The notes beneath the pieces are model-generated. The model searched no databases, was not told the origin of the DNA, and worked only from the letters and a program-made list of their open reading frames with translations. The position numbers and the translations under genes were made by a program. DNA of 64,000 bases from Belnapia moabensis DSM 16746 (GTDB lineage: Bacteria > Pseudomonadota > Alphaproteobacteria > Acetobacterales > Acetobacteraceae): positions 1 through 64,000 of the forward strand of contig NZ_JQKB01000013.1 in assembly GCF_000745835.1 (NCBI RefSeq), given 5' to 3'. Of the stretch, positions 1-11,412 are shown piece by piece. The stretch's first letter is position 1. Each line of letters begins with the position of its first letter.

Positions 1-97
1 GATCGAGCCAGATCGTTAGCGAGCCGCGTCGCTTGAGCCCGTCGCTGTAGGCAGGCCAGTTCCTGGTCTTGTAAGTCGGCGGTGTCGGTCTGCTCAT
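1..97 (-). CDS. IS5-family transposase, N-terminal 32 residues (partial)
   Basis: DDE-type transposase that would cut and rejoin the ends of its own element. Only the N-terminus is present, beginning MSRPTPPTYKTRNWPAYSDG and continuing with LKRRGSLTIWLD, a highly recurrent start for IS5/IS903-group transposases in alphaproteobacteria. The ATG is at 97-95. The catalytic DDE residues lie beyond the left window edge, so whether the enzyme is intact cannot be judged. Confidence 0.85.
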   Translation of the reverse strand, partial: MSRPTPPTYKTRNWPAYSDGLKRRGSLTIWLD

Positions 98-146
98 GCC
101 GTCCAGCTATCACGCTGGATTCACGAGATGAATCCCCCTCAGGCCA

Positions 147-162
147 TTTGTGCAACAGAGCC
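147..162 (-). repeat. Terminal inverted repeat of the IS5-family element
   Basis: The minus strand reads GGCTCTGTTGCACAAA from 162 to 147. This matches the terminal repeat sequence known for IS5/IS903-group elements and sits at the expected short distance upstream of the transposase start. Confidence 0.8.
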
Positions 163-497
163 TAGCAACATCAAAATCGCAACTGTTATTACCACAGGCC
201 AAGGCCTACGACTTCCTCGAGGCTTTGCACGCATGACCGTTCACGCTCCTGCTCAAACTGCCGGTACCGATTCTGACCGGTGCTGTCCGTCCAGCGCAAG
301 CCGCACTAGTATAACATCAAGGCTCATACCTCACAGGTCGTCGCCGATACGGCGCCGTTTCAATGCGAAAATGGCTTGCGAAACTGCAGGCACACACAGC
401 CAAGCGTCGATAAAGTTCTGAAGGCACCACCTATCGAGACGCCCAGACGGCAGGCTTGTCGGAGGTTCAGGGCGATACAGTCTCAGGGGGGCCATCT
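163..497. other. Gene-free lower-GC stretch between the IS end and the truncated portal gene
   Basis: About 335 bp clearly less GC-rich than everything to its right. I find no protein family in any frame. The open frame starting at 128 crosses the IS end and has no coding character. On the minus strand one frame ends with FALKRRRIGDDL and a stop, but I do not recognise it. The stretch is probably scar or foreign DNA left by successive insertion and deletion events at the prophage's left boundary. Confidence 0.5.
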
Positions 498-499
498 AA

Positions 500-1612
500 C
501 GCTCCAACTTCGCCGTCGAGATGCACCAGGCCTTCGTCGAGCTGGTCGTTACCGGCACCGGCGTCCTGCTGGTGGAGGAGGCCCCGCTCGGCGAGCCCTC
601 CGCCTTCCGCTTCGCCGCGCTGCCGCTGCGGAGCGCGGTGCTGGAGGAAGGGCCGGACGGCCGGCTCGACACCATCTACCGCCAGGCGCGGCTGACGCCG
701 GGCCAGCTGCGTGCCCGCTTCCCCGGGGCGCCGCCCGAGCTGGAGCGCGCGGGCAGCGATGCGACGCCGCTGCAGCTGCTCGAGGCGCTCTGGTCCGAGC
801 GCGGCGGCACCGGCTACGCCGCCATCCTCACCGCCGATCCCGGTCGGCCGCTGCTGCTGGCCGAGGGGCGCTTTCACGAGAGCCCATGCATCGCCTTCCG
901 CTGGCTGAAGGTGCCGGGCGAGCTCTACGGCCGCGGCCCGGTGATGAAGGCGCTGCCCGATATCCGTACCGCCAACAAGGTGGTGGAGCTCGTCCTCAAG
1001 AATGCCTCGATCGCCGCCACCGGCATCTGGCAGGCTGAGGATGACGGCGTGCTGAACCCGGCGACGGTGAAGCTCGTCCCCGGCGCCATCATCCCCCGCG
1101 CGCCGGGCAGCAGCGGCCTCACCCCGCTCGCGGCGCCTGGCAATTTCGACGTCTCGCAGCTGGTCCTGCAGGACCTCCGCACCCGCATCCGCGGTGCCCT
1201 GCTCGCCGATCGGCTCGGCGCGATGCAGGCCGGCACGATGACGGCGACCGAGGTGCTGGAGCGCAGCGCGCAGACCGCGCGGCTGCTCGGCGCCACCTAT
1301 GGCCGCCTGCAGACCGAGCTGCTGACGCCGCTCGTCACCCGCTGCCTCGGCATTCTCGGCCGGCGCGGCGAAATCCCGCCAGTCCTGCTCGACGGGCGCG
1401 AGGTGGCGCTGCGCTACGAGAGCCCGCTCGCCCGCATCCAGGGCCGGGCCGATGCGGCGAACACGCTGCTCTTCCTCCAGGCGGTCGGCCAACTCGGCGG
1501 CGAGGCCGCCCGGCAGGTCGATGCCGCGGCGGCGACCCGCTGGCTGGCTCGCACCCTCGGTGCCCCCGCCGAGGTGCTGGTGCCCGCTTCAACCCTCTCC
1601 AACCGGGAGTGA
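500..1612 (+). pseudogene. Podovirus portal (head-tail connector) protein, 5'-truncated
   Basis: T7 gp8-like portal proteins form the dodecameric ring at the capsid vertex through which DNA is packaged. Recognisable family sequence begins at about 500 (SNFAVEMHQAFVEL) just after an in-frame TAA at 497-499, and continues through VTGTGVLLVEE to the C-terminus. Only about 370 residues remain, against roughly 500-550 in full-length family members, and the first 100-150 residues are missing. An in-frame ATG at 521 could still give a 363-residue product but is probably just an internal Met. The scaffold gene follows 7 bp after the stop. Confidence 0.8.
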
Positions 1613-1619
1613 CCCGAAC

Positions 1620-2336
1620 ATGCCCGAGGATCTGTTGCAGCCCGACGGCCCCACGCCGCGCCCCGCCGATGTGCCGGAGAAATTCTGGGATGCCGAGACC
1701 GGCACGCTGCGCACCGAGGCGCTGCTGAAATCCTACCGCGAGCTGGAGCGCCGCCTCTCCCAGCGCGCCGCCCTGCCCGGCGCGGATGCGGCGCCGGAGG
1801 ATGTCCTGCGCTTCCGCCAGGCGATGGGCATCCCCGACTCGCCCGACGGCTATGAGATCACGTCGCCGCACGACCTCTGCTGCGCCGATGCCGAGGTGAA
1901 CAGCCGGCTGCATGCCGCTCACTTCACCCCCGGCCAGGCTCAGCTGGTCTACGACCTCGCCGCCGAACGCCTGCTGCCGCTGATCGCCGAGGCCGCCGCC
2001 GAGTTCGAGGCCAATCGCCAGCGCGAGAAGCTCGCCGCGCATTTCGGCGGCGAGGAGCGCTTCAAGGCCATGGCCGCGCAGCTCTCCGCCTGGGGCCGCG
2101 CGAAGCTGCCGGCGCCGGTCTATGCCGCGCTCTCCTCCACCGCCGAGGGCGTGCTCGCGCTCGAGCGGATGATGCAGGGCGGCGAGCCCGGCCTCTCCCG
2201 CGAAGGCATGACGCCGCCTGGCGAGAGCGAGGCCGAGCTGCGCGCCATGATGCGCGACCCGCGCTACTGGCGGACGCGCGAGCCGGCCTTCGTCACCCGC
2301 GTGACCGAGGGCTTCCGCCGCCTCGTCGGCCAGTAA
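1620..2336 (+). CDS. Phage capsid assembly scaffolding protein
   Basis: A 238-residue acidic protein placed between portal and capsid, the position of T7 gp9. It starts MPEDLLQPDGPTPRPADVPE at an ATG 7 bp after the portal stop. The sequence has a proline-rich acidic head (residues 1-25), a segment RQAMGIPDSPDGYEI (around 65-80) typical of podovirus scaffold proteins, and a long alpha-helical Ala/Glu-rich middle. Scaffolds direct prohead assembly and leave before DNA packaging. The call rests on position plus these motifs. Confidence 0.75.
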   Translation: MPEDLLQPDGPTPRPADVPEKFWDAETGTLRTEALLKSYRELERRLSQRAALPGADAAPEDVLRFRQAMGIPDSPDGYEITSPHDLCCADAEVNSRLHAAHFTPGQAQLVYDLAAERLLPLIAEAAAEFEANRQREKLAAHFGGEERFKAMAAQLSAWGRAKLPAPVYAALSSTAEGVLALERMMQGGEPGLSREGMTPPGESEAELRAMMRDPRYWRTREPAFVTRVTEGFRRLVGQ

Positions 2337-2365
2337 GGCCCCATCCCCTTTCCCGCCGCGAACAA

Positions 2366-2411
2366 CCCCGCCCGCATCCAGCGGGCGGAGCCGCGGCGTG
2401 CCATGCCGCGG
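2366..2411 (+). promoter_or_regulatory. Two adjacent GC hairpins before the capsid gene
   Basis: The 145-bp gap between scaffold and capsid genes contains an 8-bp perfect stem (2368-2375 with 2381-2388, 5-nt loop), followed at once by a 7-bp perfect stem (2391-2397 with 2405-2411). No U-tract follows. They could act as an RNA stability or processing element, or as an attenuator that sets capsid expression apart from that of the scaffold. Confidence 0.4.
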
Positions 2412-2481
2412 CGGTCCTGCAAGCGGGACAAACCGCCGCGCCACGGCGTCACCCCCAAGACCTCCAGCCGAAGGGCAGACC

Positions 2482-3315
2482 ATGTCCAGCTCCATCGACC
2501 AGGCTTTCGTCAAGCAGTACCAGGCCGAGGTTCAGGAAGCTTTCCAGCGCCAGGGCAGCAAGCTGCGCCCGCTCGTGCGCAGCAAGTCCGAGGTGCGCGG
2601 CGCTTCCACCATCTTCCAGAAGGTTGGCCGCGGCACCGCCGCCGCCAAGGCGCGCAACGGCGTCGTGCCGATGATGAACATCGACCACACCAATGTCGAG
2701 TGCTTCCTGCAGGACTACTACGCCGGCGACTGGGTCGACCGGATGGACGAGCTCAAGACCAACATCGACGAGCGCGCGGTGGTGGCGAATGCCGGCGCCT
2801 ACGCCCTCGGCCGCAAGACCGACGAGCTGATCATCTCCGCCCTCGATTCCGCCACCAACGAGGCGGTCGGCACGAACACCGGCGAGACCGACAACGACGG
2901 CATGACGCGCGCCAAGGTGCTGCTCGCCTTCCAGGCGCTCGGCAATGCGGACGTGCCGGATGACGGCAACCGCTTCGCCGTCGTCGGCTGGAAGCAGTGG
3001 AGCGAGCTGCTGACCATCCAGGAATTCGCCAACACCCAGTATATGGGTCCGGACGAACTGCCCTGGAAAGGCACGCAGGCGAAGCGCTGGCTCGGCGCCA
3101 TCTGGATGCCGCATAGCGGCCTGACCAAGAACGGCGCGCTGCGCTACTGCTACTTCTTCCACAAGACTGCGATCGGCCATGCCTCGGCGGCGGAGATCTC
3201 CACCGACATCACCTGGCACGGCGACCGCGCCGCGCATTTCGTCAACACGATGATGAGCCAGGGCGCCGTGCTGGTCGACAACACCGGTGTCGTCCGGATG
3301 CGCTGCAAGGAATAA
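2482..3315 (+). CDS. Phage major capsid protein
   Basis: A 277-residue protein starting MSSSIDQAFVKQYQAEVQEA at ATG 2482. It has the pattern of podoviral capsid proteins: an N-terminal helix, a loop around RGASTIFQKVGRGTA, then IDHTNVECFLQDYYAGDWVD and DERAVVANAGAYALGRKTDE. It forms the icosahedral shell. Upstream in-frame Met codons lie in the hairpin-rich leader and do not look coding. The gene sits between two hairpin regions, in keeping with a separately controlled, highly expressed product. Confidence 0.85.
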   Translation: MSSSIDQAFVKQYQAEVQEAFQRQGSKLRPLVRSKSEVRGASTIFQKVGRGTAAAKARNGVVPMMNIDHTNVECFLQDYYAGDWVDRMDELKTNIDERAVVANAGAYALGRKTDELIISALDSATNEAVGTNTGETDNDGMTRAKVLLAFQALGNADVPDDGNRFAVVGWKQWSELLTIQEFANTQYMGPDELPWKGTQAKRWLGAIWMPHSGLTKNGALRYCYFFHKTAIGHASAAEISTDITWHGDRAAHFVNTMMSQGAVLVDNTGVVRMRCKE

Positions 3316-3325
3316 CGCAGCCGCC

Positions 3326-3353
3326 GCCCCACCCCGCGTCCGCGGGGTGGGGC
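3326..3353 (+). terminator. Strong GC hairpin after the capsid gene
   Basis: A 13-bp perfect inverted repeat (3326-3338 with 3341-3353) begins 10 bp after the capsid stop, followed by acccctttccc. There is no clean T-tract, so it may be a partial terminator. In T7-like phages a terminator lies just after the capsid gene, so the position is telling. Confidence 0.55.
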
Positions 3354-3387
3354 ACCCCTTTCCCTCACCGCCGGAGTTCCGTACCCG

Positions 3388-3957
3388 ATGGCCCTCTCCG
3401 CCCTCGCGCTCTGCACGCGCGCGCTGTTGAAGATCGGCGCCCAGCCGATCGCCTCGCTCGACGAAGGCACCGCCGAGGCCGAGGTGGCGGCCAACCTCTA
3501 TGTCGGCACGCGCGATGCACTGCTCTCCTCGCATCCCTGGAGCTTCGCCACCGGCCAGGCCTGCCTGCCGCGCCTGGCGGCGACACCGGTCGCCGACTTC
3601 CAGCATGCCTTCCAGTTGCCCGCCGGCTTCCTGCGCGTGCTCTCGGCCGGCGTGCCGGAGAGCGGCCGCGGCCTCGCCTACCGGCTGTTCGAGGACCGGC
3701 TGCACTGCAACGCGCCGCAGGTCGTCCTCAGCTATATCTTCCGCCCGGACGAGGCCGCCTTCCCGGCCTTCTTCGCCGCCGCGCTGGCCACGCGCTTGGC
3801 CGCCGAATTCTGCATCCCGCTGACCGAGAACACCTCCCGCGCCCAGCTTCTGCTGGCCCAGGCGGATGCCGAGCTGCGCAATGCCCGCCGCGCCGACAGC
3901 CAGCAGGCGACGCCGCGCGCCATCGAGGACTTCCCGCTCGTCACCGTGCGGGGCTGA
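3388..3957 (+). CDS. Tail tubular protein A (T7 gp11-like)
   Basis: A 189-residue adaptor protein that joins the portal ring to the tail nozzle. The N-terminus MALSALALCTRALLKIGAQP, then TAEAEVAANLYVGTRDALLS and HPWSFATGQACLPRL, matches the gp11 family well, and the size is close to T7 gp11 (about 196 residues). The ATG at 3388 follows the hairpin after the capsid gene, and the next tail gene begins 3 bp after the stop. Confidence 0.88.
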   Translation: MALSALALCTRALLKIGAQPIASLDEGTAEAEVAANLYVGTRDALLSSHPWSFATGQACLPRLAATPVADFQHAFQLPAGFLRVLSAGVPESGRGLAYRLFEDRLHCNAPQVVLSYIFRPDEAAFPAFFAAALATRLAAEFCIPLTENTSRAQLLLAQADAELRNARRADSQQATPRAIEDFPLVTVRG

Positions 3958-3959
3958 GC

Positions 3960-5840
3960 ATGGGCCAGTCCCGCACGCTGAAGACCAGCTTCACCGCCGG
4001 CGAAGTGGCGTCCACGCTGCTCGGCCGGCCCGACCTGCGCGCCTATGCCAATGGTGCGCGACGCCTGCGCAACGTCTTCATCCAGCCGACCGGCGGCGTC
4101 ACGCGCCGGCCCGGCCTCCGCCACGTGGCGATGCTGCCGGGCGCCGCGCGGCTCATCGCCTTCGAGTTCAACACCGAGCAGGCCTATCTGCTGGTGCTGA
4201 CCGGCGGGCTGCTCCAAGTCTTCATCGACGACGGGCTGGTGGCGCAGTTCTCCGCGCCCTGGACCGCGGCGATGCTGCCGCAGCTCGCCTTCACCCAGAG
4301 CGCCGACACGCTGCTGGTCTGCCACCCCGACCTGCCGCCGCAGTGCGTCACGCGCACAAGCCATGTGGCCTGGACGATCGCGCCCTGGTCCTTCCTGCGC
4401 GAGCCCTTCCACCGCTTCGCCGCGCCCGAGGTCACGCTGACGCCGAGCGGCACGACGGGTGCCATCACCCTCACCGCCTCCGCCGCCGTCTTCGCGGCCG
4501 GCCATGCGGGCGTCCGCTTCCGCCTCGGCGGCAAGCGGCTGGTGATCGGCAGCGTCGTCTCGCCGACCCAGGCGAATGCGGTCGTGGAAGAGACCCTCGC
4601 CGGCACCCCGGCGACGACGGATTGGGATGAAGCCGCCTTCTCGCCCGTGCATGGCTGGCCGGTGACGCTCTGCTTCCACCAGGACCGGCTGGTGCTCGGC
4701 GGCTCGCGCGACATGCCGAACCGCCTCTGGCTCTCCTGCACCGGCGACCTGTTCAACTTCGACCCCGGCACCGGGCTCGACGACCAGGCGATCGAGTTCA
4801 GCCTCGTCTCCGACCAGGTGAACGCCATCCGTGCCGTCTTCTCCGGACAGCACCTCCAGGTCTTCACCTCGGGCACGGAATGGATGGTGAGCGGCGCGCC
4901 GCTGACGCCGGGCAGCATCCAGCTCGACCGGCAGACACGCGTAGGCTCGATCACGGCGCGCATGGTGCCGCCGGTCGATGTCGACGGTTCCACCATCTTC
5001 GCCAGCCGCAGCGGGCGGGGGATCTTCGAGTTCACCTACACCGACCTGCAGCAGCTCTACCAGGCGAACGATCTCGGCCTCGTCGCGCAGCACCTGATCC
5101 GCGACCCCGTCTCCATGTGCTACGACCAGCGCCGCCGGCTGCTGCATGTAGCGATGGCCGATGGCAGCCTCTCGACGCTGACGCTCTACCGCGCCGAGCA
5201 GGTCATTGCCTGGACGCGGCAGGAGACGGCCGGCACCTTCCTGGCGCTTGCCGAGATCGGCGGCACGGTCTGGGTCGCGGTGCGGCGGGCCGGCAGCATC
5301 CGGCTCGAGCGCTTCGACGATGCGCTCGGCCTCGACGCGGCGCTGACCGGAGCCACGCCAGCGCCGCAGGACAACTGGTCCGGCCTCGCCCATCTCGAGG
5401 GCCAGCCGGTCGGCGTCGTCGCCGATGGCGCACCGCGCGAGCCGGCGGTGGTGCAGGCCGGCAGCGTCACCATCCACCCGCCCTCGACGAGCGTGCAAAT
5501 CGGCCTCGCCTTCACCCATGTGATCGAGCCGCTGCCGCCCGACCTCTCCACCGCGATCGGCGCCCGCGCGGCGCCGATCCGCCTCGTCGCCGTCACCTTC
5601 CGCCTGCTGGAGACGACGGCGCTCGCCGTCGATCTCGGCCGCGGCACGCAGCCGGTGCCATTCCGCCGGCTCGACACGCCGATGCTCGACGCAGCCCCCG
5701 CGCCCTTCACCGGCGATGTGCGGCTGCGCGCCCTCGGCTGGCGCAGCGATGCGATGCGGCCGCTCTGGCGCATCGAGGACGACACGCCTCTGCCGATGAC
5801 GCTGCTTTCCGTCACCACCGATACGAGGATGACCGACTGA
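3960..5840 (+). CDS. Tail tubular protein B / nozzle protein (T7 gp12-like)
   Basis: A 626-residue tail nozzle protein. The N-terminus carries the conserved start TSFTAGEVASTLLGRPDLRA, then ANGARRLRNVFIQPTGGVTR, typical of the gp12 family. The body is beta-rich, with segments such as VTLCFHQDRLVLGGSRDMPN and WMVSGAPLTPGSIQLDRQTR that also recur in this family. It is somewhat shorter than T7 gp12 (about 794 residues). Its stop overlaps the next start by one base (TGATG), so the two are probably translationally coupled. Confidence 0.85.
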   Translation: MGQSRTLKTSFTAGEVASTLLGRPDLRAYANGARRLRNVFIQPTGGVTRRPGLRHVAMLPGAARLIAFEFNTEQAYLLVLTGGLLQVFIDDGLVAQFSAPWTAAMLPQLAFTQSADTLLVCHPDLPPQCVTRTSHVAWTIAPWSFLREPFHRFAAPEVTLTPSGTTGAITLTASAAVFAAGHAGVRFRLGGKRLVIGSVVSPTQANAVVEETLAGTPATTDWDEAAFSPVHGWPVTLCFHQDRLVLGGSRDMPNRLWLSCTGDLFNFDPGTGLDDQAIEFSLVSDQVNAIRAVFSGQHLQVFTSGTEWMVSGAPLTPGSIQLDRQTRVGSITARMVPPVDVDGSTIFASRSGRGIFEFTYTDLQQLYQANDLGLVAQHLIRDPVSMCYDQRRRLLHVAMADGSLSTLTLYRAEQVIAWTRQETAGTFLALAEIGGTVWVAVRRAGSIRLERFDDALGLDAALTGATPAPQDNWSGLAHLEGQPVGVVADGAPREPAVVQAGSVTIHPPSTSVQIGLAFTHVIEPLPPDLSTAIGARAAPIRLVAVTFRLLETTALAVDLGRGTQPVPFRRLDTPMLDAAPAPFTGDVRLRALGWRSDAMRPLWRIEDDTPLPMTLLSVTTDTRMTD

Positions 5841-6301
5841 TGGGCGCACTCACCTCGATCGCCACCGTGCTCGGCGCCGGTGCGACGGTCTACGGCCAGG
5901 TCCGCCAGGCCCAGGCGCAGAACGCCGCCAACAAGGCCCAGGTGCAGATCAATGCGACGCAGGAGGCGGCGCAGCAGCAGGTGCTGCTGGCCCAGGCGCA
6001 GGAGGCGGCGCTGCAACGGCAGACGGCGCTCGCGCGCACCGTCGCCTCCGCCCGCGCGCGCCTCGCCGCGGCCGGCGTCTCGCCCGACAGCGGGTCGGCC
6101 GCCGCCGTGACCGGCGGCCTCGCCAGCGAGGCGGCAGCGGCCCAGGGCGCGGACGAGGCGACCTTGCGCGCCCGCCTCGCCGATGGCCGCAGCAGCCTCT
6201 TGAACCCGGACGGCACGGTGACGGCGCTGCTGGGCGCTGGCCGCGGCATCGCCGGCATCGGCCGCGGCTTCGGCGGCATCGCCAGGACCCTGTTGGATTA
6301 G
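5840..6301 (+). CDS. Internal virion protein, T7 gp14-like
   Basis: A 153-residue Ala/Gln-rich helical protein starting MGALTSIATVLGAGATVYGQ. A hydrophobic N-terminus (residues 1-18), a long Gln/Ala helix (about 22-75) and a Gly-rich C-terminal end fit the small core proteins ejected at the start of infection. It follows the nozzle gene, the place of gp13/gp14 in T7. The large core genes 15 and 16 that should follow are absent: the tail fibre starts 9 bp after the stop. Confidence 0.6.
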   Translation: MGALTSIATVLGAGATVYGQVRQAQAQNAANKAQVQINATQEAAQQQVLLAQAQEAALQRQTALARTVASARARLAAAGVSPDSGSAAAVTGGLASEAAAAQGADEATLRARLADGRSSLLNPDGTVTALLGAGRGIAGIGRGFGGIARTLLD

Positions 6302-6310
6302 GAGCGCAGC

Positions 6311-8644
6311 ATGGACGACCATATCAGGATCGGCGACGTCGCGCCGCGCGTGCAGTACCGTGCGGATGGCGTGCTGACCGGCTTCACCTATCCCTTCCCG
6401 ATCTTCGCACCGACGGATCTCGAGGTGCGGCTGGACGGCGTTCCGCAGGCCGGCGGCTTTGTTGTCACCAATGCCGGTGCCAGCGAGGGCGGCAGCGTCG
6501 TCTTCTACGCGCCGCCGCGCGCCGGCACCCAGGTCACGCTCCGCCGCAACATGGTGGTGGCGCGCACCACGGATTTCCAGGCGAACGGCATCCTCCGCGC
6601 CCGCACGCTGAACGACGAGCTGGACTACCAGGTCGCCGTGCTGCAGGAGGTGAAGGACGGCCTCGGCAACGCGCTGCATCTCGACCCGTCGGAGAGCGGC
6701 TCGACGGCGTTGCCGCTGCGCGGCGCGCGCGCCAACCGGCTGCTCGGCTTCGACAGCCTCGGCAACATCGCGACCTTCGGCCGCGACGAGGGGCTGCTGA
6801 CCATCGGCTTCCCCGGCGGCGTGCCGCGCACGGTGGAGGACAAGCTTTCCGAGCGCCTCACCGCGCGCGACTTCGGCGCGACCGGCGACGGCACGACGGA
6901 TGACGGCCCCGCGCTCCAGGCGGCGATGACGGCGGCGGCGGCGAGCGGCAAGCTGCTCGAGATCGGCGAGGGCATCTTCCGCACCAGCATGGCGCTGACG
7001 CTGCCGGGCGCCGCCGCCGGCCTCGTCATGCGCGGCAGCATTCTCTATGCAGGCCCCGCCGGCCTGCCGGCGCTGACACTGGGCGATGGCGGCACGGCCA
7101 ACAACCAGGGCAAGCTTTACAGCGGCCTCGCCGTGCTCCGCGCCGTGCAAAGCGACTGGTCGGACGAGGGCGATGTCGGCATCCTGATCCGCAACCTCGA
7201 TGCCGGCACCGTCGATATCCGCCGGGCCGAGCGTTTCACCATCGGTGTGCAGCTGGTGGGCGACGGACGCGGCTGCGAGGACAGCGACCTGCGCTATGGC
7301 CGCCTGATCGACAACCGCATCGGCCTCGACCTGCGCACGCTGACGGCGAGCGGCTGGATGAATTCGCTGCGCCACCAGGGCGGGCATTTCGCCTGCTCCA
7401 GCGCGACCAATCCGACGCAGCCGCGCTTCGGCGTGCGGCTCTCCGCCGCGGCCGGCGCCTACAGGCTGCACAACACGCATCTCTTCACCGGCCCGGCCTT
7501 CGAGCTGCAGCGCCAGGGCACGCCGGGCGCGGTGGATGCCATCCCCTTCCTCGTCGAGGTCGACGGCCGCTGCCTGGTGGCGACGGGCGTGCGGATGGAA
7601 GCCTGCTCCCCCTATGTCGCCCGCCACACCGGCGGCTTCAGCGATGCGCGCTACGAGGTCTCCTATGTCGGCACCTACGGCTTCCTCGGTTGCTCCGTGC
7701 AGTACCAGGGCGCCTCGCGGGCCGGTGGGACGGTGGTGCCGATGCACCAGGCCGTGGCCGCCATCGCCGCGCCGCGGCTGGTGGCGGGCGCGGAGAACCT
7801 GCGGACGCTCGCCTTTCGCCAGGGCATCTCCGTCAGCGATGGCATCGGCTTCGACCAGCTGGCGGTGCTGTCCGGCAACCCCTCCGGCCCGCCCTCGACC
7901 CTGAACGGCTTCTGCTTCCCAGGCCTCAACGCCTTCACCCTCAACGCCGACGACGTGACCATCCCCACCTCGCGGGCGCTGGCCTACATCGTCGATTGCA
8001 GCCATTGCAAGGAGTTCTTCATCGCCGCCGAGGGCATCGGCCTGCGGCCTATGGTGATGCAGTTCGACGCCGCGGAGAATGTGCTCGGCGCCGGCAGCCC
8101 CGTGCTCTTCTCCAACATGAACACGCTGATGCAGGGCACGCCCTCCTACTGGTGGGAGGGCAATGCCGATCTCGACAGCCTCACCGGCGGCTTCGCGCTC
8201 AACAAGCTGCAGCGGGTGACGCTGAGCGCCGATGCGCAATACGCCGCCATCGGCATTCGCGGCAGCTCGGCCAGCGCGGTGCTGCGCTCGCTCCGCCTCT
8301 ACACCTCGGCGCTGCACGCGCCGCGGGTGCTGTTCGGCGGCTCGCGCGCCTGGGGCAAGCGCGAGTACACGGTGAGCGACACTGGCTGGACCATCCCGGC
8401 GCTGGCCGCCGGCGCCACCGCGACCTATGACGTGACGCTTCCCGGCGTGCGGCAGGGCGATTTCGTTCGCGCCGGCTTCGCCCAGTCGGCCGGCTTCCAG
8501 AACGGCGGCGTCGTCTTCCACGCCTCGGTCGGCGGCACGGCGGGCAGCAACCAGGTGCGCGTCACGGCGCAGAATGTGAGCGGCAGCTCGATCACCCTCG
8601 GCGCCGGCACGCTCTTCGTCCGCGCCGTCAAGCCGCGGGTCTGA
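6311..8644 (+). CDS. Tail fibre/tailspike with T7 gp17-like base and beta-helix body
   Basis: A 777-residue receptor-binding protein. Residues 1-115 resemble the virion-binding N-terminal domain of T7 gp17, with FTYPFPIFAPTDLEVRLDGV, VVARTTDFQANG and TLNDELDYQVAVLQ. Around residues 185-215 a pectate-lyase-type repeat onset (RDFGATGDGTTDDGPALQAA) begins a likely right-handed beta-helix, as in depolymerase tailspikes that cut surface polysaccharide. Catalytic residues cannot be assigned by eye. A small gp18-position gene follows 4 bp later. Confidence 0.85.
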   Translation: MDDHIRIGDVAPRVQYRADGVLTGFTYPFPIFAPTDLEVRLDGVPQAGGFVVTNAGASEGGSVVFYAPPRAGTQVTLRRNMVVARTTDFQANGILRARTLNDELDYQVAVLQEVKDGLGNALHLDPSESGSTALPLRGARANRLLGFDSLGNIATFGRDEGLLTIGFPGGVPRTVEDKLSERLTARDFGATGDGTTDDGPALQAAMTAAAASGKLLEIGEGIFRTSMALTLPGAAAGLVMRGSILYAGPAGLPALTLGDGGTANNQGKLYSGLAVLRAVQSDWSDEGDVGILIRNLDAGTVDIRRAERFTIGVQLVGDGRGCEDSDLRYGRLIDNRIGLDLRTLTASGWMNSLRHQGGHFACSSATNPTQPRFGVRLSAAAGAYRLHNTHLFTGPAFELQRQGTPGAVDAIPFLVEVDGRCLVATGVRMEACSPYVARHTGGFSDARYEVSYVGTYGFLGCSVQYQGASRAGGTVVPMHQAVAAIAAPRLVAGAENLRTLAFRQGISVSDGIGFDQLAVLSGNPSGPPSTLNGFCFPGLNAFTLNADDVTIPTSRALAYIVDCSHCKEFFIAAEGIGLRPMVMQFDAAENVLGAGSPVLFSNMNTLMQGTPSYWWEGNADLDSLTGGFALNKLQRVTLSADAQYAAIGIRGSSASAVLRSLRLYTSALHAPRVLFGGSRAWGKREYTVSDTGWTIPALAAGATATYDVTLPGVRQGDFVRAGFAQSAGFQNGGVVFHASVGGTAGSNQVRVTAQNVSGSSITLGAGTLFVRAVKPRV

Positions 8645-8648
8645 GCGC

Positions 8649-8954
8649 ATGGCCGCCAAACGCAGGCTTCGCATCTCAGGCGACTTCGCCGGCGCCGTGG
8701 CGCTGGTCTTTGCCGACTACCGCCGCTTCGTCGCCCTCTGCCTCGAGGAACCGGACGAGGCCATGGTGAAGGCCTTCGCCGCCCGCCACACCGCCGGCCG
8801 CACGGCCCTCGCCCATGCCGAGCAGCTGCTGAAGCTCGCCGCAGATGCTGGCGAGGAGGCGCAGCAGGACGCCATCGCCGAGGTTCTCGCCGAATGGCGC
8901 CGCCTCATGCCAACCCTGCCGGAGGAGGAGGATGACGCAAGCGCCGGACGTTGA
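8649..8954 (+). CDS. Small terminase subunit candidate (T7 gp18 position)
   Basis: A 101-residue helical protein starting MAAKRRLRISGDFAGAVALV, 4 bp after the tail fibre gene. Its last 23 bases overlap the large terminase gene. Size and position match T7 gp18 (89 residues), which recognises concatemeric DNA and hands it to the large subunit. No helix-turn-helix is obvious, so the call rests mainly on synteny. It could be another small phage protein. Confidence 0.5.
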   Translation: MAAKRRLRISGDFAGAVALVFADYRRFVALCLEEPDEAMVKAFAARHTAGRTALAHAEQLLKLAADAGEEAQQDAIAEVLAEWRRLMPTLPEEEDDASAGR

Positions 8955-10368
8955 CTTCCTCGAATTCGCCTGGATCTGGAACGCCGTCCAGAACCAGGGC
9001 ATGCCGGCGCCGCACCGGCGCATCGCCCGCTGGCTCCAGGCCCGCTGGGAGTGCGACGACCGGCGCCTTCTGCTGATGGCCTTCCGCGGCTGCGGCAAGT
9101 CCACGCTGGTCGGGCTGTTCTGCGCCTGGCGCCTGCTGCGGGCGCCGGACACGCGCATCCTGGTCCTCGCCGCCGACCAGGTGCTGGCGGCGAAGATGGT
9201 CGCCCAGGTGCGCCGCATCCTGGAACGCCATCCGCTCTGCCGGCAGCTCCTGCCGGAACGCGCGGAGAGCTGGGCGGCGGACCGCTTCACCGTTTCCCGC
9301 AAGGCGGTGCTGCGGGACCCGTCGATGCTCGCCCAGGGCATCGGCGGCAACATCACCGGCGCGCGGGCCGACCTCATCATCTGCGACGATGTCGAGGTCG
9401 CCGGTAATTGCGACACGGCGGGCAAGCGCGAGGAGCTGCGCGAACGGCTCGGCGAGTGCGAGTTCGTCCTCGTCCCGGGGGGAGGCATCCTCTATGTCGG
9501 CACGCCGCATTGCGCCGAGACGCTCTACCTGCCGCCGGAGGAGCCCGCCGCCTTCCTCCGCGGCTACCGGCGCCTCGCCCTGCCCCTGCTCGATGCCGAA
9601 GGCCGCAGCGCTTGGCCCGAGCGCTTCACGCCGACCTCGGTCGCCGCACTCCGCGACCGCGTCGGCCCGCTGCACTTCGCCCGGCAGATGCTGCTCCAGC
9701 CGGTGGCGGAGGCGGCGCTCCGGCTCGATCCGGCCCTCCTCATCCGCTACGGGGAGGAGCCGGACTACCGCGAGGCCGGCGGCCGCGCCCAACTCTCGCT
9801 GCTGGGCCGGCGGCTGGCCTCGGGCGGCGGCTTCTGGGACCCGGCCTATGGCCGCCCCGGGGCCGGCGATGCCTCGGTGCTGGCCGCAACCTATGCGGAC
9901 GGCGAGGGCAACCACTACCTCCATCGCCTCGCCTACCTCACGCATGACCCGGACAGCCAGGTCGACCCCGCGACCCAGCAATGCCGGGCCGTGGCGCGGC
10001 TGGCGCGGGAGCTGCTGCTGCCGGTGATCCGGGTGGAGACGAACGGCCTCGGCCGCTTCCTCCCCGCCCTGCTCCGCCGGGCGCTGGCGGAGGCGGGGGC
10101 GCCCTGCACGGTGATCGAGCATGCCAGCCGCCGCGCCAAGGCGGAACGCATCCTCGCCGCCCTGGAGCCGGCGCTCGCCGCCCGCCGCCTGCATGCCCAC
10201 GAGTCGGTGTTCCGCACGCCCTTCCCGGGCGAGATGGCCGCCTGGCGGCCGGACGCACCCGGCCAGCGGGACGACGCCCTCGACGCCCTGGCCGGCTGCC
10301 TGCTCGCAGAGCCGGTCCGCCTGCCCGCCGCCATGCCTGCCCCGCGCCAGCCCGCCTGGCGCGGCTAA
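8932..10368 (+). CDS. Phage terminase large subunit (T7 gp19-like)
   Basis: DNA packaging motor with ATPase and nuclease domains, 478 residues from the ATG at 8932 (MTQAPDVDFLEFAWIWNAVQ). The Walker A motif is FRGCGKST (residues 51-58) and Walker B is LIICDD (148-153). The nuclease domain shows WDPAYGRPGAGDASVLA (acidic residues D303, D313) and a late QRDDALDALAG. An in-frame Met at 8845 lies inside the preceding gene and is rejected. The length is slightly below T7 gp19 (586 residues), but all core motifs are present. Confidence 0.92.
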   Translation: MTQAPDVDFLEFAWIWNAVQNQGMPAPHRRIARWLQARWECDDRRLLLMAFRGCGKSTLVGLFCAWRLLRAPDTRILVLAADQVLAAKMVAQVRRILERHPLCRQLLPERAESWAADRFTVSRKAVLRDPSMLAQGIGGNITGARADLIICDDVEVAGNCDTAGKREELRERLGECEFVLVPGGGILYVGTPHCAETLYLPPEEPAAFLRGYRRLALPLLDAEGRSAWPERFTPTSVAALRDRVGPLHFARQMLLQPVAEAALRLDPALLIRYGEEPDYREAGGRAQLSLLGRRLASGGGFWDPAYGRPGAGDASVLAATYADGEGNHYLHRLAYLTHDPDSQVDPATQQCRAVARLARELLLPVIRVETNGLGRFLPALLRRALAEAGAPCTVIEHASRRAKAERILAALEPALAARRLHAHESVFRTPFPGEMAAWRPDAPGQRDDALDALAGCLLAEPVRLPAAMPAPRQPAWRG

Positions 10369-10595
10369 CCGGCCTTCTTCAGCCGCAGAATCTCCCCGGC
10401 ATGCCGCTCCCGCCCCGCCGGGGTCAGCTCGTACCGCCCATCCGCCCTGAGCCTCGCCAGCCCCATGCCCTGGAGCCGTTCCAGGCATGGCCCGTCCTTC
10501 AGCCCATCGGGCCGTCCGCCTCCGCCCACCAGCACCAGCCGGTGGAGCGCCGCGCGGCAGCAGGTCTCGAGATAGGGCTCGTTCCAGATCGTCAC
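10365..10595 (-). CDS. Small winged-helix-like protein antisense in the prophage
   Basis: A 76-residue frame from a GTG at 10595 (VTIWNEPYLETCCRAALHRL), transcribed against the phage genes. Its stop overlaps the terminase stop by 4 bp. The C-terminal half (LERLQGMGLARLRADGRYEL, then TPAGRERHAGEILRLKK) has the helix plus beta-wing pattern of a winged-helix DNA-binding domain. An in-frame ATG at 10676 would give 103 residues but would overlap the next plus-strand start. It fills the only 300-bp gap in the cassette. Function unknown; a small regulator is an inference. Confidence 0.5.
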   Translation of the reverse strand: MTIWNEPYLETCCRAALHRLVLVGGGGRPDGLKDGPCLERLQGMGLARLRADGRYELTPAGRERHAGEILRLKKAG

Positions 10596-10669
10596 TGTTC
10601 CATCGCGTCCCGGTACCGCCCGAGGGTGGTCGCACCGGCACGCCGCTTCAAGGAGGCATGTGAGCCGCG

Positions 10670-10987
10670 ATGTCAATCGAACCCACCTGGTGGATCAGCG
10701 CAGTGGAGGCGCCGATCGCCGCCGCCCTGTTCTGGATGCTCCACGGCCTGCGGAAGGACCTGCACGACCGCATCGACCGCACCACGGAGCGGGAGAGCGG
10801 CGAGGTCCGCCGCACCCGCGACGAGCTCGCCGACTTCAAGCTGGAGGTGGCGCGCAGCTACGTCCCGCTCTCGCTCATTCGGGACGTGGACCGCCGCCTC
10901 TCCCAGCACCTGCTGCGCATCGAGGAGAAGCTGGAGGCAGCCGGCACGCTCCGCCTGCGCGACCGCCTCGGGGGAGACGAGCCATGA
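10670..10987 (+). CDS. Membrane-anchored coiled-coil protein, holin/spanin-like candidate
   Basis: A 105-residue protein with one hydrophobic segment near the N-terminus (about residues 8-25, WISAVEAPIAAALFWML) followed by a charged helical stretch rich in Arg/Glu/Asp (about 27-95). It overlaps the endolysin gene by 4 bp (ATGA), so a role in lysis is likely: it could be a holin, an XhlA-like anchor or an inner-membrane spanin. No family motif settles which. ATG 10670 is the only sensible start. Confidence 0.5.
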   Translation: MSIEPTWWISAVEAPIAAALFWMLHGLRKDLHDRIDRTTERESGEVRRTRDELADFKLEVARSYVPLSLIRDVDRRLSQHLLRIEEKLEAAGTLRLRDRLGGDEP

Positions 10988-11412
10988 GCGCCGAGGTCCT
11001 GGCCCTCACCCTCCGCGCCGAGGCCGGCAGCCGCTCCGTCCGCGCCATCGAGGCGCTCGCCGCCCTGGTGGTGAACCGCGCCTGCCTGGCTGCCGAGGCC
11101 CCGGCGCTGCGCACCCGCTTCGCCCCCGGCCTCCGCGCCGGGGCAGGTTGGGCCGCGCTGCTGGCCGAAGCCTGCCGCGCCCCCTTCCTCTTCCGCTGCT
11201 GGCAGCCCGGCCGGCTGCGCGCCGAGGCGCCGGCCGATGCGGCGATGGAGGTCTGCCGCCGCATCGCCGCCCGCGCCATGGGCGGCGCCCTGCAGGACCC
11301 GACCGAGGGCGCGACGCACTGGCACGACGGCGCCTCGCTCCCCGGCTGGGCGATCGGCCAGGTGCCGACCGCCGAGATCGGCGGCCTGGTCTTCTACCGC
11401 CTGCCCGGCTGA
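10984..11412 (+). CDS. SleB-type cell wall hydrolase (phage endolysin)
   Basis: A 142-residue protein of the Hydrolase_2 (SleB) family, which cuts peptidoglycan glycan strands. The N-terminal segment EVLALTLRAEAGSRSVRAIE carries the expected catalytic Glu (about E14), followed by AALVVNRA. The C-terminal motif GATHWHDGASLPGWAIGQVP and VFYRLPG is diagnostic. There is no signal peptide, so export or a holin would be needed, in keeping with the upstream membrane protein. It is the last phage gene; the next gene, on the other strand, is host-like. Confidence 0.85.
   Translation: MSAEVLALTLRAEAGSRSVRAIEALAALVVNRACLAAEAPALRTRFAPGLRAGAGWAALLAEACRAPFLFRCWQPGRLRAEAPADAAMEVCRRIAARAMGGALQDPTEGATHWHDGASLPGWAIGQVPTAEIGGLVFYRLPG

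Follow-up and report, generated by a model that had tools for sequence, protein, structure and literature searches.

Gene transfer agents (GTAs) are defined in PMC9662315 by structural proteins of caudoviricete derivation, endogenisation in the host genome, often in multiple loci, mostly vertical inheritance, a genome that is not fully packageable, packaging of mostly random host DNA and delivery of this DNA to other cells. RcGTA and type I GTAs (Rhodogtaviriformidae), as presented there, are vertically inherited, phage-derived structural clusters without replication genes. The cassette of phage structural genes considered here lies at positions 500–11,412 of a 64,000-nucleotide stretch (the window; contig NZ_JQKB01000013.1, hereafter C13) of the genome of Belnapia moabensis DSM 16746 (Acetobacteraceae, Alphaproteobacteria), and it appears to be a cluster of the same general kind, but its large terminase (TerL) is of the T7 type, whereas the TerL of RcGTA is described as nearest to P22-like headful terminases (PMC7947584). 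According to Kogay 2019 (PMC6821227), the orders Acetobacterales, Azospirillales and Rhodospirillales contain 0 RcGTA-like clusters.

A podovirus-like GTA-like element has already been published for Faecalibacterium (FpGTA, PMC12946183), so an element of this kind is known; its authors present it as the first GTA-like element with podovirus-like morphology. According to that account, FpGTA retains a holin and an endolysin, as the cassette does, and its two operons (10.5 and 5.5 kb) lie about 125 kb apart in one genome, while the cassette is split in six genomes; FpGTA has a Gram-positive host and is known from particles, proteomics and packaged DNA, whereas the cassette is known from its genes alone and is likened to FpGTA by description. 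VSH-1 and BhGTA of Brachyspira differ from the cassette in their flexible non-contractile tail and their spirochaete host. Mitomycin-induced ~10-kb particles of Azospirillum lipoferum and of strain B510 are called GTAs in PMC3899980, which also points out that GTA genes can be difficult to recognise in genome sequences. A link between the cassette and the Azospirillum particles is only a lead. These particles were reportedly found by Boyer in 2008 to be Siphoviridae-like, which would speak against their identity with the cassette. An incomplete prophage of an Elioraea metagenome-assembled genome, compared here by its table description, combines a lysin, a terminase and a cI-like repressor on 7.7 kb (PMC8597652); Elioraea, a genus of the Acetobacteraceae, also possesses the cassette (L123). 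The part of the GTA and prophage literature that was checked yielded no GTA description of this element and no ancient podovirus-derived GTA in Alphaproteobacteria.

Distribution, Inheritance and Selection

Comparative analysis indicates that the cassette is quite probably a domesticated, mostly vertically inherited particle module of podoviral origin, working like a GTA. Three of the six defining features of GTAs appear to be present by sequence, and a fourth, a genome that is not fully packageable, may be; similarity searches point to caudoviricete-derived structural proteins, host genes shared across genera and families suggest endogenisation in the host, and the congruence of host and cassette phylogenies, in the sense of PMC9662315, is apparent, if mostly rather than perfectly.

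The distribution was assessed by capsid searches, with the genome of DSM 16746 (6.73 Mb, 282 contigs) included in the counts. Within the genus, the capsid gene is present in seven of the eight genomes, one copy each, with relatives 90–97% identical; the genome that lacks it is 75% complete. In a second genus, all 15 genomes carry the cassette (15/15). At the family level, 115 of 397 genomes were positive, spread over 25 of 102 genera and including 112 with exactly one match of at least 69% identity (two of them short and partial, one with an internal stop) and three with weak matches only. The class-level search found matches with an E-value of 1e-20 or better in 76 of 385 genomes from many families, 59 of them strong, and the phylum-level search gave 10 positive genomes of 398, including two weak matches from outside the class (E 2e-34 and 7e-25). 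Four genomes (G412, G457, G477 and G591) are not counted as cassettes because of their tree positions beside viral-type sequences, yet they are contained in the 59. A scan of named genomes gave at least 540 relatives, of which 80 were used; their titles include Belnapia, Siccirubricoccus, Dankookia, Roseicella, Paracraurococcus, Rhodovarius, Rubritepida, Roseomonas and its segregates, Roseococcus and Elioraea, and the remainder are Acetobacteraceae, Rhodospirillales or Alphaproteobacteria entries. Because the named loci overlap with the G-numbered genomes (L033, for example, is the same genome as L051), the two sets cannot be treated as independent. In 20 of the 282 capsid-negative family genomes inspected for an empty site, the DUF952 gene was found in five, each time on another contig than lysK. 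Horizontal spread by plasmids was rejected, as a search with one distant homologue revealed no capsid match in 72,556 plasmid records.

Trees of the concatenated cassette proteins and of RpoB, built for 48 genomes (G412, G457 and G591 among them), gave patristic distances correlated at r = 0.83; none of 2000 permutations was as high, the maximum being 0.39. The two trees shared 19 of 45 splits; 18 of the 30 strong cassette splits were found in the RpoB tree and 15 of the 28 strong RpoB splits in the cassette tree. Ratios of nonsynonymous to synonymous substitution (dN/dS), estimated within the genus by the Nei–Gojobori method for five to seven genomes, point to purifying selection on the cassette genes: 0.08 for the S24 repressor, 0.11 for the holin, 0.135 for the capsid, 0.15 for TerL, 0.17–0.18 for u73 and the portal, 0.20 for the fibre, 0.22–0.30 for u143, u149, tube A, tube B, scaffold and endolysin, and 0.38–0.41 for the gp14-like protein and u77, so that 13 of the 16 genes lie within 0.08–0.30; the value for rpoB was 0.07. 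Cassette and rpoB have dS values of similar magnitude, and an antisense capsid frame made a poor control, with a dS below 0.1. The small gene u73, on the opposite strand within the operon, is about as constrained (0.17) as TerL. The comparison of relatives that the sequence-only reading had proposed, for presence and for dN/dS, thus gave a single-copy cassette in the genus, found across family and class, and purifying selection.

Gene Order, Host Flanks and Split Loci

Gene order and intactness were examined in 56 of the 80 named loci, each of at least 18 kb, and a gene was called full-length when its frame was open over at least 85% of the model. All 56 loci were collinear for the genes found full-length, with the order S24 repressor (minus strand), u143, u149, u77, portal, scaffold, capsid, tube A, tube B, gp14-like protein, fibre, small terminase (TerS), TerL, u73 (minus strand), holin and endolysin. 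The 14 core frames (u77 and u73 excluded) were all full-length in 40 of the 56 loci; each gene from portal to TerL was full-length in 53–56 loci, the fibre in 54 and u73 in 48. Contig ends account for some of the gaps, locus L100 is clearly broken in the middle, and the cassettes of L076, L082 and L083 are intact. The host genes lysK, mprF and DUF952 flank the cassette in at least 28, 30 and 37 of the 56 loci, respectively, and in some loci genes that we read from their frames as a DMT transporter and pyrD follow DUF952.

Among the 40 class-level loci (L240–L279), 24 have portal, capsid, tube B and TerL together in a single stretch, with single-gene identities of about 26–69%; lysK lies upstream in L253, L257, L271 and L272, and a same-strand DUF952 lies downstream in L241, L242, L243, L253 and L257, while DUF952 of L251 is placed differently. 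In six class genomes the module is divided between scaffold and capsid, the distance from portal to capsid being 11 kb in G435, 69 kb in G446, 133 kb in G612, 152 kb in G569, 243 kb in G694 and 1.24 Mb in G771. Each portal of the split genomes is single-copy at an E-value of 1e-30, and that of G446 is itself broken into two parts separated by about 17 kb. No shared operator ahead of the second half was found in the six split genomes within 700 bases upstream of the capsid gene. Halves lying 69 kb to 1.24 Mb apart, as in five of these genomes, could hardly be packaged together in a T7-sized head. In three 0.9-Mb genomes (L258, L260 and L261), TerL is divided over two frames some 3.3 kb apart, one for the ATPase half and one for the nuclease half; the portal adjoins the latter, and tube B is likewise in two frames.

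Genes of the Window and the Interrupted Portal

Open reading frame calls and family profile searches agree with the sequence-only reading, which had described a tightly packed structural cassette from portal to endolysin without replication genes. The 3′ part of the portal gene, from about codon 103, occupies 500..1612 on the plus strand (PF12236, E 2e-93, profile positions 118–489; 97.5% identity to the intact portal of sister L031), and is followed, on the same strand, by the T7 gp9-like scaffold (1620..2336; PF05396, E 1e-10), the major capsid protein (2482..3315; PF19821, E 5e-78; phrog_3437), the gp11-like tail tube A (3388..3957; phrog_394, E 1e-47) and the gp12-like tail tube B, or nozzle (3960..5840; phrog_376, E 5e-143). 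A gp14-like internal virion protein of 153 aa (5840..6301, plus strand) was assigned through its homologue L051:13359-13799, which matches phrog_418 with an E-value of 5e-4. The tail fibre or spike (6311..8644, plus strand; phrog_1640) has a T7-fibre-like N-terminus and a pectate-lyase-like body, with PF03906 and PF12708 below the Pfam cut-offs. The candidate TerS, assigned by position, lies at 8649..8954 (plus strand), with phrog_31793, a family of unknown function, as its sole match. TerL (8932..10368, plus strand) matches the NCBIfam T7 TerL equivalog NF033889 with 420 bits against a cut-off of 150, as well as phrog_38, which places it clearly in the T7 type; among 45 sequences, its Walker A and B and nuclease acidic positions, which we take to be the motif sites, are at least 95% conserved.

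The small conserved frame u73 (73 aa, 10365..10586, minus strand), of unknown function, lies between TerL and holin; its L051 homologue has no Pfam, PHROG or PADLOC match. The putative holin, assigned by position (10670..10987, plus strand), matches phrog_29007 (unknown function) and phrog_462, and the endolysin, a cell-wall hydrolase (10984..11412, plus strand), matches PF07486 with 26.3 bits, under the cut-off of 27, and phrog_938 with an E-value of 0.007. No counterpart of the T7 large ejection proteins gp15 and gp16 was found; between tube B and fibre there is only the 153-aa frame, in the same order in the 56 named loci. The view of the cassette as following T7 therefore holds for the structural genes and fails for gp15/gp16 and for the minus-strand u73 inserted between TerL and holin. 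Pfam and PHROG profile searches with window and L051 sequences revealed no integrase or replication families among the 16 cassette genes, nor a single-subunit RNA polymerase; PF00940 had no match in the whole genome, though the control genomes gave none either. PADLOC detected no defence family among six cassette proteins.

The portal was rightly noted as the exception among the open frames. Positions 1..499 are contig-edge foreign DNA that breaks the portal gene in DSM 16746, and the alignment to L031 starts only at base 500. The window starts at base 1 of C13, so the region "left of the insertion sequence (IS)", where missing replication genes might have been sought, lies on another contig. 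This contig, C49, carries, towards the break, lysK, mprF, a divergent S24 repressor (99% identical to that of a sister genome), u143, u149, u77 and the 5′ part of the portal. The portal reading ends on C49 and its next codon is found at window base 500, each part being bordered by foreign DNA, which indicates that the gene is interrupted in DSM 16746; in the sisters L031, L033 and L035 the portal is a single open frame of 472–506 aa. The inserted DNA on C49 includes a DDE_3 transposase fragment at the contig start and two more called frames without a Pfam match, and no replication families were found in these three frames. What lies past the break is thus the rest of the portal, u77, u149, u143, the repressor and the host genes mprF and lysK, without replication genes, contrary to the expectation for an ordinary prophage split by an IS. 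The statement that no repressor is present is true of the window, but not of the whole element, given the S24 repressor on C49 of the same genome.

The broken portal probably makes the element non-functional in DSM 16746. Broken portals occur in three unrelated copies, at different codons in each: in DSM 16746, in G446 (L357/L358) and in the IMG/VR record L383 (at L383:8492). L383 is a 55.8-kb record, of which 18.4 kb were examined; it contains a copy of the cassette with a truncated portal beside a serine recombinase gene. Insertions may strike the portal repeatedly, and selection perhaps favours them as a means of turning the element off.

Control Region

The S24 repressor retains the Ser and Lys residues, presumably catalytic, and the Ala-Gly site, presumably that of self-cleavage as in the CI/LexA type, in all 59 Acetobacteraceae sequences of the named-locus set; in the set of G-numbered genomes, Ser and Lys are present in 26 of 34 sequences, and four of the remainder are gaps. 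The 8-mer ATCCTAGG occurs between the S24 gene and u143 in 42 of 55 loci, while the best of 60 shuffles gave 6, and the arrangement TCCTAGG-N15-CAATAGG was found exactly in the same interval of 34 of the 55 loci; this set contains one duplicate, L033 and L051. The predicted structure of u143 (pLDDT 81.5) resembled all five listed entries of the phage 21 Q protein with Z-scores of 6.7–7.0, the next unrelated structure scoring 2.8; the Q21-like fold of u143 is a lead only, and a search of 50,697 phage records gave no match to this protein. The product of u149 (L051:6825-7238) has an invariant His and Cys, and its model showed weak similarity to YiiX (Z-score 6.8) and to a Bacillus cereus cysteine peptidase (Z-score 6.1), a predicted peptidase-like fold that is likewise a lead only.

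Viral Relatives and the RcGTA Marker

In the tree of portal and capsid (65 sequences), eight of the ten viral-type homologues form one cassette-free clade with a support of 0.99, and L277 and L278 are placed elsewhere; with midpoint rooting, G457, G477 and G591 are neighbours of the viral clade and G412 joins L277/L278. A portal-only tree gave the same picture. MT838907 (L318, "Bacteriophage sp." from a human faecal sample) had been left out of the viral-type set beforehand, since it groups within the cassette clade, next to G566; by this position it is probably a fragment of a bacterial chromosome. The viral-type L283 and L284 are divergent, prophage-like second copies in two cassette-bearing family genomes, with primase or helicase genes present; L284 also encodes internal virion proteins, among them a match to a family of tail-injection transglycosylases. 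Such internal virion or ejection-type proteins are carried by the viral-type relatives L284 and L285, unlike the cassette, which is without gp15/gp16, and TerL lies upstream of the portal in L284/L285, whereas in the cassette it lies downstream of fibre and TerS. In two IMG/VR contigs, 35 and 40 kb long, TerL-sized frames precede u149 or the portal, and the 35-kb contig has frames of 562 and 1382 aa after tube B. IMG/VR also lists many copies of the cassette (L131–L210, L361–L404) as viruses, the best 80 contigs being 4–16 kb and none of these longer than 16.3 kb.

The closest capsid in a phage record longer than 5.1 kb is that of Pelagibacter phage Hodr (44% identity); among HTVC010P-type pelagiphages, HTVC010P itself has 32%. 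Tube B is 33–34% identical to its counterparts in Yersinia phages YeP4-6, in MEP301 and in pelagiphages, and TerL is 33% identical to that of T7-like phages over 57% of its length. The nearest complete phages among the matches listed have genomes of 33–42 kb, against about 13.5 kb for the cassette.

The GTA_TIM domain PF13547, which we assume to mark RcGTA, was absent from the genome of DSM 16746 and present in the control Caulobacter. It was found in 35 of the 385 class genomes and in none of the 76 with the capsid (59 strong), and the 36 families with a strong capsid did not overlap with the 17 families with the marker. The probability of this exclusion is 0.002 for the strong set if the genomes were independent, which they are not. 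The phylum draw contained one weak capsid match (G826, E 2e-22) in a PF13547-bearing family, f70.

Possible Origin and Function

The sequence-only reading had left a choice between a recent remnant and a retained particle-forming element, e.g., a gene-transfer device; sequence comparison strongly supports the latter. A recently arrived, decaying prophage whose frames are not yet broken would explain the lack of replication and integration genes, the broken portal of DSM 16746 and the disruption of L100, but the cassette is a single-copy element whose orthologues are collinear and constrained across genera, and it occurs in different families and lies between recurring host genes; its age (dS of the order of rpoB), synteny and dN/dS refute a recent arrival, which leaves this explanation hardly credible. 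A still mobile minimal prophage or satellite, replicated by the host or a helper phage and maintained by infection, is also improbable. It would fit the S24/CI-type repressor with its cleavage residues, the listing of copies as viruses in IMG/VR, including one record of 55.8 kb, and some of the tree conflicts; against it stand the size of about 13.5 kb, the absence of integrase families among the 16 genes, the recurring host locus and the negative plasmid search with one homologue, and neither the 80 best IMG/VR contigs, with their limit of 16.3 kb, nor the examined part of L383, which shows a serine-recombinase element beside a truncated portal, reveal a longer phage. The persistence of halves up to 1.24 Mb apart fits a mobile prophage poorly, since one would expect a virus to move as a whole.

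A capsid-and-tail particle kept for killing or interference, bacteriocin-like or directed against phages, rather than for moving DNA, seems unlikely, if less so than the two preceding explanations. Tail, fibre and lysis genes are retained and ejection proteins are absent, as such a device might require, and the negative PADLOC result for six proteins does not exclude a role in defence; at the same time, purifying selection also acts on capsid, scaffold, portal and TerL, and the active-site residues of TerL are kept, none of which a DNA-free killer would need, and, to our knowledge, phage-tail bacteriocins have no heads.

Several observations weigh against a domesticated module working like a GTA. 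The evidence for it is drawn from sequence, and particles, packaged DNA and transfer are predictions. The cassette is missing, at 69% identity or more, from 285 of the 397 family genomes; the portal is broken in DSM 16746 itself, in G446 and in L383; the holin is not full-length in five of the 56 loci and the endolysin in eight, some of them cut by contig ends; and TerS, with a dN/dS of 0.56, is weakly constrained, the least of all genes. The capsid-only tree places the viral-type L283/L284 on the cassette side. Strong cassette splits conflict with 11 of the 28 strong RpoB splits, in many cases via G412, G457, G501, G525, G591 and G593; together with the correlation of 0.83, this suggests that inheritance has been mostly, not perfectly, vertical, with some transfer or tree error. 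Foldseek gave no significant match for the models of u143 or u149, and a Z-score of about 7 for a helical model may, as noted for the aligner, reflect just a common arrangement.

If the cassette does work like a GTA, DNA damage would activate RecA and lead to self-cleavage of the S24 repressor, a promoter at the conserved DNA element that lies between the repressor gene and u143 would open, and u143, with its predicted Q21-like fold, would let transcription run through the structural operon. TerL would then fill the capsid with host DNA, holin and endolysin would release the particles, and the conserved fibre would bind close relatives; in the most speculative step, the DNA, in the absence of gp15/gp16, would perhaps be left in the periplasm for competence-type uptake. 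The fuller proposal, which we put at slightly better than even, is that the cassette represents a third, independently domesticated and very old alphaproteobacterial GTA lineage, derived from a small podovirus. It would have resided at the lysK…pyrD locus since the ancestor that Acetobacteraceae share with several related families, would be under the control of an S24/CI-type repressor together with a Q-type antiterminator, and would occupy the RcGTA-free part of the class.

Should the particles transfer DNA, a large section of Alphaproteobacteria in which RcGTA-like clusters are reportedly lacking would possess a GTA of different ancestry. In that case, a short-tailed phage would have been domesticated convergently in RcGTA's own class, the question of why GTAs are kept would become testable, and many "viruses" of IMG/VR would be organs of their hosts.

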